Shown: piece by piece, positions 16,835 through 18,784 of the stretch
How the letters are laid out: every line of letters starts with the position of its first letter
Numbering within the stretch: the first letter of the stretch is position 1
Made by a program: the position numbers and the translations under genes
Notes under the pieces: generated by a model
Databases searched by the model: none
The model's input: only the letters and a program-made list of their open reading frames with translations
Told to the model about the DNA's origin: nothing
From: Marivirga sericea
GTDB taxonomy: Bacteria > Bacteroidota > Bacteroidia > Cytophagales > Cyclobacteriaceae
NCBI RefSeq assembly: GCF_900177665.1
Contig: NZ_FXAW01000001.1
Location: 1,069,099 to 1,133,098 of the forward strand
Length of the DNA: 64,000 bases
Direction: 5' to 3'

Positions 16835-17272
16835 ATGTTAACATTATTAATTACTTTAATCATTTTAGTTGCCATTTTGTTGGTATTGGTAGTATTGGCT
16901 CAAAATTCTAAAGGCGGTGGTTTGTCCAGCCAATTTGGAGGTTCAGGAGCTAGTCAAGTTGTAGGTGTTAAAAGAACTGGAGATATTCTGGAAAAGATCA
17001 CCTGGGTGTTGGCTATCAGCTTAGTGGTATTGAGCTTAGCTTCATCTTTTGTGATTAAATCAACAACAGTTGATACAGGCTTTACAAGTCCTAATATCGA
17101 AAAAGCACAAGATGAAACCTTACTTCCTGGAATGGAAAGTGGTGGTGAAGAAGGCCTATTACCTCCAACAGAAGGTGAAGAAGCTACGGAAGGTGATAGC
17201 GAACAAGGTGGTAACCAAGAATTGATTGAGGGGCTTCAAGACGAAACTGAAGACGGAAATACTGAAGAGTAA
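16835..17272 (+). CDS. secG: SecG, subunit of the SecYEG preprotein translocase
   Basis: SecG assists protein export through SecYE. The 145-residue product has two membrane segments (about residues 1-22 and 50-74) joined by the Gly-rich cytoplasmic loop NSKGGGLSSQFGGSGASQVVG, the family hallmark. A long acidic C-terminal tail (residues 80-145, rich in Glu and Gly) is extra compared with E. coli SecG but common in this phylum. It starts 4 bases after the Lys-rich gene and ends at a terminator, so it is the last gene of the miaB-secG unit. Confidence 0.95.
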   Translation: MLTLLITLIILVAILLVLVVLAQNSKGGGLSSQFGGSGASQVVGVKRTGDILEKITWVLAISLVVLSLASSFVIKSTTVDTGFTSPNIEKAQDETLLPGMESGGEEGLLPPTEGEEATEGDSEQGGNQELIEGLQDETEDGNTEE

Positions 17273-17295: not shown

Positions 17296-17325
17296 AAAGG
17301 GAATCCGAAAGGTTTCCCTTTTTTT
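17296..17325 (+). terminator. Terminator after secG
   Basis: AAAGGGAATCC and GGTTTCCCTTT form a stem with a GAAA loop, followed by a T-run. It ends the miaB-to-secG unit. Confidence 0.9.
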
Positions 17326-17370: not shown

Positions 17371-18087
17371 ATGAAACTTAGTGTCTGCTGTATTTTAAGC
17401 CTATTATTATCGTTTGACTCCTTCTCTCAAAAAAGAATTGAATCATTAGAGAATTCAGGTAGTTTCAGCAGATTTGAAACTTACCTTAGTTTTGAGATCA
17501 AGCTTGTTGATTTTGAAAATAGTCTATATGTCAACGATCTTAAAACCACTGAAGTTCAAATAGAAAATGGCTTTACCCATAACAAAATTAACTTCATTGA
17601 TTTTTCTTTTGGTATAAACGGAGGTGTAACTTTAGGTATTCCTTACGAAGATCGAAGGATCGCTTATTTTCAAAATACAAACGGTTTTTCTTATGATACC
17701 TTTATTAAACTCGATGAAATAGACTGGATTGATCAAGATTTATCAAAAACCAGATATTTCTTTGGTTTTCATCCTCAACTCACTTTCAATATTTCAGAAA
17801 AATGAAAACTTCTTACTGGCACAGAAATACGCTATTACTTCCAACCTTTTTTTGAAAGAAGAACTTTTGATGGAGCATATGTCATTAATGATGGGGTAAA
17901 TTTCGACTTCTTAGGAAACGCTGGACCATATTATATACTTAATGATAATTTATCAATTGGTTTAAATTATTACAGGGGATTATCTTATTTATACAAAGCA
18001 TAAAGAGGAAATACTAGTGGAAGTGGTCTCTTCGAAAGCTCTGTTAGATACCATAGTTTAGGTCTAAATGTTAGTTATTCATTTTAA
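17371..18087 (+). pseudogene. Outer-membrane beta-barrel gene broken by two in-frame stops
   Basis: The frame begins with a signal peptide (MKLSVCCILSLLLSFDSFSQ) and beta-strand-like sequence. It stops at TGA 17803-17805. The same frame then continues without any shift for 65 codons of clearly barrel-like protein (LTGTEIRYYFQPFFERRTF, then NDNLSIGLNYYRGLSYLY), meets TAA at 18001-18003, and continues again to a natural end at TAA 18085-18087. The last residues SLGLNVSYSF carry the terminal Phe typical of outer-membrane barrels. Repairing the two codons gives a 238-residue protein. Both stops are one base from sense codons (GGA or AGA; CAA, GAA or AAA). This is a recently decayed gene or a pair of sequencing errors. 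The exact family is not recognised. Confidence 0.85.
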
Positions 18088-18102
18088 TCTTATCTATTCA
18101 AA

Positions 18103-18141
18103 GCAATGAAAAGGAAATCCCTTTGGTTTCCTTTTTATTGC
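18103..18141. terminator. Hairpin terminator after the pseudogene
   Basis: AAAAGGAAA and TTTCCTTTT form a stem inside a wider inverted repeat (GCAAT ... ATTGC), followed by TATT rather than a long T-run. It stands at the expected end of the broken beta-barrel gene. Confidence 0.6.
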
Positions 18142-18283
18142 TGTAGATTTTCAGAATTCTATTGTTTTGCCAAAAACTAAAATACAACTGCTAGTTAAAA
18201 ACAATTGAATGCAAAAAATGAACACTTATCTACACAAGAAATTGCTAAACCTGTAAACACACCAACTTGATAACTTGCCAACT

Positions 18284-18784
18284 TCACCCCCGTTTTCCTA
18301 ACTCAATCACCTCCAACTTCTCCACTTTCCCCTTATTAATCTCAAAGCGCATCATTGTCCTGATTTTATGAAAACCTTGATTTCCAGCTGCTCCTGGGTT
18401 GAGGTAAAGTAAATTTCCATGCTTGGGGTCAGGCATAGCCCGAAGGATATGAGAATGCCCACATATAAAAACATTTGGATTCTCCGAATGAATCAATTTT
18501 CGAACGCGTGGATTGTAAGAAGGTGGCTTTCCTCCTATGTGGGTCATAAATATCTTGGCACCTTCCCTTTCAATGAATAAATCTTCTGGATATTCCCTTT
18601 GAAATTCTGGGGTATCTATATTTCCGTATACTACCAGAGTCGGAGCAATCTGATTGAGCTTTGCAATAATTTCACCAGTATCCCCTACATCACCTGCATG
18701 CCAGATTTCATTGCATTCTTTGAAATAGCGTGGAATGCTGTCATCCCAAAAGCTATGTGTATCGGATATTAAGCCTACTTTCAT
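18284..18784 (-). CDS. YfcE/MJ0936-type metallophosphoesterase
   Basis: Small calcineurin-like phosphodiesterases of this family use two metal ions to hydrolyse phosphodiesters. The 166-residue protein has the ordered metal motifs: SDTHSFWD at the N-terminus (DxH), HAGDVGDTGE (GD), VYGNIDTPEF (GN), MTHIGGKP and GHSHILRAM (GHxH). Length and start are typical. The physiological substrate is unknown. It lies downstream of the phosphohexomutase on the same strand, separated by a 12-bp inverted repeat. Confidence 0.92.
   Translation of the reverse strand: MKVGLISDTHSFWDDSIPRYFKECNEIWHAGDVGDTGEIIAKLNQIAPTLVVYGNIDTPEFQREYPEDLFIEREGAKIFMTHIGGKPPSYNPRVRKLIHSENPNVFICGHSHILRAMPDPKHGNLLYLNPGAAGNQGFHKIRTMMRFEINKGKVEKLEVIELGKRG

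Follow-up and report, generated by a model that had tools for sequence, protein, structure and literature searches.

Ordinary nonsense pseudogenes of bacteria carry in-frame stops within a frame that is homologous to intact relatives, and the gene concerned is a dispensable one. Barrels of the outer membrane need their C-terminal strands and a terminal Phe for insertion by BAM. For Marivirga, PMC11225308 gives 7-46 annotated pseudogenes in each genome. Here we describe a gene from this genus that is interrupted by two in-frame stop codons. In our estimate, with a probability of roughly 85%, it is a nonsense pseudogene of young age that arose by ordinary gene decay, and its parent is a genus-level gene for an outer-membrane protein, probably a beta-barrel. 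Literature searches on Marivirga pseudogenes, outer membrane protein, and secG returned nothing on the broken gene, as judged by titles and abstract openings.

The Broken Frame and Its Surroundings

The gene lies in a window (the whole stretch of 64,000 nucleotides that was analyzed, with a G+C content of 35.0%) of a source genome of 4,738,491 bases in 26 contigs, here termed G000. Positions 17371-18087 of the plus strand hold 238 codons and a final TAA, and translation gave exactly two internal stops. The first part (17371..17802) comprises a signal peptide, recognized by eye, and the N-terminal 144 codons; it is the only part expected to be translated. It is followed by a TGA (17803..17805), a middle part of 65 open and conserved codons (17806..18000), a TAA (18001..18003), the last 27 codons with a conserved end stretch and terminal Phe (18004..18084), and the original stop codon TAA (18085..18087). 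This re-translation agreed with the first-pass annotation, which had described a single 717-base frame with the TGA and the first TAA as its sole breaks. It also remarked that a single change would turn either stop into a sense codon; this holds for any stop codon and is of no evidential value. A random run of 238 codons with this base composition would contain 18.5 stops on average (P of two or fewer, about 9e-7), and the remaining five frames of the same stretch contain 13, 30, 21, 17, and 20 stops. A chance frame was ruled out because the joined frame aligns end to end with unbroken proteins.

Upstream of the broken gene is an intact gene on the plus strand (16835..17272) that we take to be secG, and downstream, on the minus strand, is an intact gene (18284..18784) that presumably encodes a YfcE/MJ0936-like metallophosphoesterase; both were named from their sequences rather than by family search. 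Each is a neighbor of the gene in most congeners. A terminator-like hairpin on the plus strand between secG and the broken gene (17299..17317), found by consensus scan in a stretch alignable in four congeners, suggests that the gene formed its own transcription unit. A second terminator-like hairpin on the same strand, with 18 pairs, was found 3' of the broken gene (18102..18142) by consensus scan only.

Intact Orthologues in Other Marivirga Genomes

The read-through protein was searched against 39 genomes including its own and those of nine Marivirga congeners. It matched its own genome and five of the nine congeners, and no match was seen outside Marivirga among the 39 genomes searched. A family-level profile search of 196 genomes returned just three weak partial matches outside the genus. 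The comparison of the joined translation with close relatives, which had been proposed in the first-pass annotation, thus yielded full-length, unbroken orthologues with 55-58% identity (E 3e-72 to 6e-78). They span the whole length, including the region past 17805, for which a lack of homologs had been envisaged as a counterargument. Both stop columns are occupied by sense codons in all five orthologues, and the stops of the window copy come too early when it is set against intact orthologues of equal length, as is characteristic of a nonsense pseudogene. The earlier statement that no frameshift is needed was borne out by the alignment. One codon present in all five orthologues is missing from the window copy, and the length of the N-terminal region varies among all of them. 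The orthologues of G005 and G009 are nearly identical, so the five orthologues represent four independent lineages. If G005 is strain BKB1-2, it has 97.8% average nucleotide identity (ANI) to M. arenosa ABR2-2 according to PMC11225308.

It had also been claimed that the sequence past each stop is still protein-like. Homology extending to the full length supports this, but codon usage of the last 27 codons favors the +1 frame, which scored higher (0.127 versus 0.045 in frame). These codons owe their support to homology (the stretch RYHSLGLN and the terminal Phe) and not to codon usage.

In three congeners (G006, G001, and G005) the orthologue immediately follows the same secG. G004 has an extra open reading frame between the two genes. 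In G009 the orthologue also follows secG, and an insertion parts it from the complete phosphoesterase gene. This insertion in M. arenosa ABR2-2 (G009; L009, just after 6711) lies beside the barrel gene; approximately the last 35-40 phosphoesterase codons remain adjacent, and the complete phosphoesterase gene is found about 6.5 kb off (G009:C1:3165737-3166234). The gap between secG and phosphoesterase measures about 160 bases in G003 and 510 bases in G007, and no similarity to the barrel gene was detected inside. In G002 and G008 the two flanking genes are on different contigs, and no copy of the gene was found in either genome. As the gene is patchy in the genus and missing between secG and the phosphoesterase gene in two congeners (G003 and G007), we deduced that it is dispensable.

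The Protein Is Probably a Small Beta-barrel

The encoded protein, of about 239 residues when intact, is probably a small outer-membrane beta-barrel. The label "beta-barrel" given in the first-pass annotation is made probable by the signal peptide and terminal Phe, both judged by eye, and by weak matches to the family PF13505 (OMP_b-brl), but the scores listed stayed below the Pfam cut-off. PF13505 was matched weakly by all six members (best E 1.3e-5); the window protein gave E 0.79 and 10.3 bits. Both scores listed, that of the window protein and the 20.3 bits of the first member, missed the cut-off of 28.7 bits, and none of the six orthologue places was among the matches of a PF13505 genome search. 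Structure prediction from two orthologue sequences gave a mean pLDDT of 27, and a sequence search of solved structures returned chance-level matches only (best E 0.11). A weak match of one of the six members to the NCBIfam TonB-hemin entry was discarded as not meaningful. The likeliest role of the intact protein is that of a porin, adhesin, or binding protein built as a small barrel at the cell surface, with loops varying between species.

Selection and Age of the Decay

A custom codon model was applied to the window copy and the orthologues; it ignores recombination, although one loop segment looks recombined. Omega was 0.264 on the window branch versus 0.157 elsewhere, a difference that was not significant (2 delta lnL 2.8), and omega = 1 on the window branch was rejected (2 delta lnL 17.2, i.e. 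8.6 log units). No branch of the OMP protein tree is longer than the window branch (0.57), which was mostly under purifying selection. In a functional-then-neutral model the neutral tail was fitted best by 0.144 substitutions per codon (about 0.05 per site); a tail of zero was a mere 0.16 log units worse, and values up to about 0.19 per site were compatible. Neutral divergence of 0.02-0.05 substitutions per site should produce 1.0-2.4 stops. If indels are assumed to arise at 0.1 times the rate of substitutions, the probability of two stops with zero frameshifts peaks at only about 6%, which weighs somewhat against decay. The occurrence of two stops without any frameshift points to a young pseudogene. 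Recent decay, one of the three possibilities left open in the first-pass annotation, is supported by the whole-length intact orthologues, by selection that was purifying for most of the branch, and by the lack of frameshifts.

On the window branch omega was 0.285 before and 0.208 after the TGA; the middle part gave 0.176, and the part past the TAA, of 27 codons only, gave 0.301. Omega = 1 was rejected weakly between the stops (1.7 log units) and not rejected after the TAA (0.9 log units), because both parts are short. When all codons past the TGA were taken together, omega = 1 was rejected by 3.3 log units, implying that this part was also selected until recently. Similar values on either side of the TGA are the expectation if both parts were functional until recently. 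The same values bear on the very improbable alternative that the truncated 144-residue protein is made and useful. The start region and the upstream sequence are still similar to those of the congeners, and the window branch before the TGA is not significantly relaxed, as such a product would have it. The part past the TGA is, however, as conserved as the part before it, so the truncated part was not singled out by selection, and a barrel without C-terminal strands is, by textbook knowledge, not expected to insert.

Because zero neutral time fits almost equally well and the excess of omega is not significant, the sequence alone cannot separate very recent decay from errors of assembly or base calling, in which case the gene would be intact in the living strain. 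Each stop affects a single codon and there is no frameshift, which fits such errors, as does the presence of one TAG inside another gene of G000, an ABC-F gene that is 86-88% identical to intact orthologues. The frequency of stops was assessed by comparing twenty 20-kb stretches and two short ones of G000, about 400 kb, with 400 kb from each of two congeners (at least 45% identity over at least 80 residues; the orthologues of the ABC-F gene and of a second broken PF13505 gene of G000 fell outside the stretches covered). The two comparisons yielded 108 and 106 matches, of which 6 and 4, respectively, were flagged for stops in G000, corresponding to seven distinct places. Sorted by overlap with longer frames rather than by annotation, five of these ran antisense to longer frames that are open, a sixth extended the start of an intact frame of 177 codons, and the seventh was the broken barrel gene, which is thus the sole clear stop-carrying orthologue of G000 in the comparison. 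No general excess of in-frame stops was found over these ~400 kb. Moreover, it would take a coincidence for two random errors to fall into the same dispensable gene of 714 bases, whereas two mutations in one unselected gene require none. Error was therefore judged unlikely.

Genes broken by nonsense codons without a frameshift are ordinary in Marivirga. The congener G006 has at least two clear broken genes with a single in-frame stop each (L088:2489-3487 and L080:3086-3454), and intact similar orthologues of these occur in G000 or G004. If G006 is the strain that was sequenced by nanopore according to PMC11225308, errors are possible in its broken genes as well.

Stop Codon Types and the Question of Readthrough

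The first-pass annotation had left open that the stops are bypassed; readthrough or recoding would then yield a barrel of full length. The frame is open past both stops and was formerly under selection, and two more genes of G000 carry in-frame stops, as this proposal would lead one to expect. The stops, however, are of different types in the three broken genes (TGA and TAA, TGA and TAG, and TAG alone), and the 56 open reading frames of the window end in TAA (38), TGA (10), or TAG (8). With all three stop types involved and all of them normal terminators, no single suppressor or code change explains the broken genes. No match was found for selA. A search for tRNA-Sec gave ten loose matches, none above the cut-off, and the same loose match occurred in all 14 control genomes; the tRNAs within the window are for Leu and Lys only. 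Neither SelA, nor tRNA-Sec above the cut-off, nor a reassigned stop codon was thus found for this genome, and the bypass of two different stops, both in normal use as terminators in the window, is extremely improbable. Genome-wide stop readthrough in G000 was rejected in the same way, with all three stop types serving as normal terminators, a single clear case in ~400 kb, and at least two in the congener G006.

The two further genes are as follows. A second small PF13505 barrel gene of G000 is open except for a single TGA and a single TAG (L035:2276-2914; G000:C24:233775-234413, also given as 233796-234398). It has no relative in the nine congeners, and the PF13505 search returned zero stop-containing matches in the nine other genomes. 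The other gene (L036; G000:C17:642100-643737, minus strand), which we take to encode an ABC-F ATPase on account of its two ABC domains, is interrupted by a single in-frame TAG immediately ahead of its first ABC signature motif; an unbroken copy of 86-88% identity is present in six of nine congeners.

A Possibly Exchanged Loop Segment

In alignment columns 481-540 (60 columns), located past the TGA in the middle part of the gene, identity of the window copy to G009, which represents the M. arenosa lineage, reaches 92%; it is 88% to G005 and 58-62% to the other three orthologues. Outside these columns its identity to G009 is 41-73%. On shuffling of columns, which are not independent of each other, the best run of excess similarity was reached in 0 of 2000 trials. 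This suggests that the loop segment was exchanged between species while the gene was still functional. Since the loop seems swapped, some congeners lack the gene, and nonsense codons silence it here, loss of the barrel might even have been favored instead of merely tolerated (e.g. if it served as a phage receptor), the surface being switched by loss and exchange; we consider this very unlikely.

Discussion

Decay of a dispensable barrel gene would have proceeded as follows. A chromosomal gene, situated in part of Marivirga between secG and the phosphoesterase gene, would have encoded a secreted, probable barrel of about 239 residues. Two point nonsense mutations would have hit it in the window lineage. 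The truncated product of 144 residues, devoid of the C-terminal strands and the terminal Phe, would be non-functional, and its loss would have been tolerated because the protein was dispensable.

The gene appears to have been caught at the onset of decay, with intact and partly syntenic relatives at hand, and is of little significance in itself. Any annotation that lists a 144-residue "protein" at 17371-17805 is corrected by this finding. As a barrel candidate at the genus level, patchy in presence and with one variable loop, the family has mild interest for the study of surface variation among marine Bacteroidota.

The window copy resembles its intact orthologues, e.g. those of M. arenosa ABR2-2 (NZ_CP129970.2, L009) and of the metagenome-assembled genome (MAG) contig QNXU01000218.1 (L008), in full-length alignment of the protein, a similar start, the terminal Phe, and, in most, the secG neighbor; unlike it, the orthologues have no internal stops, and they share 55-58% identity with the window protein. 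With PF13505 the family has in common a weak match in six of six members, but the two listed scores lie under the cut-off. From ordinary bacterial nonsense pseudogenes, with their in-frame stops in a homologous frame, dispensability, and intact relatives, the gene described here shows no notable difference.
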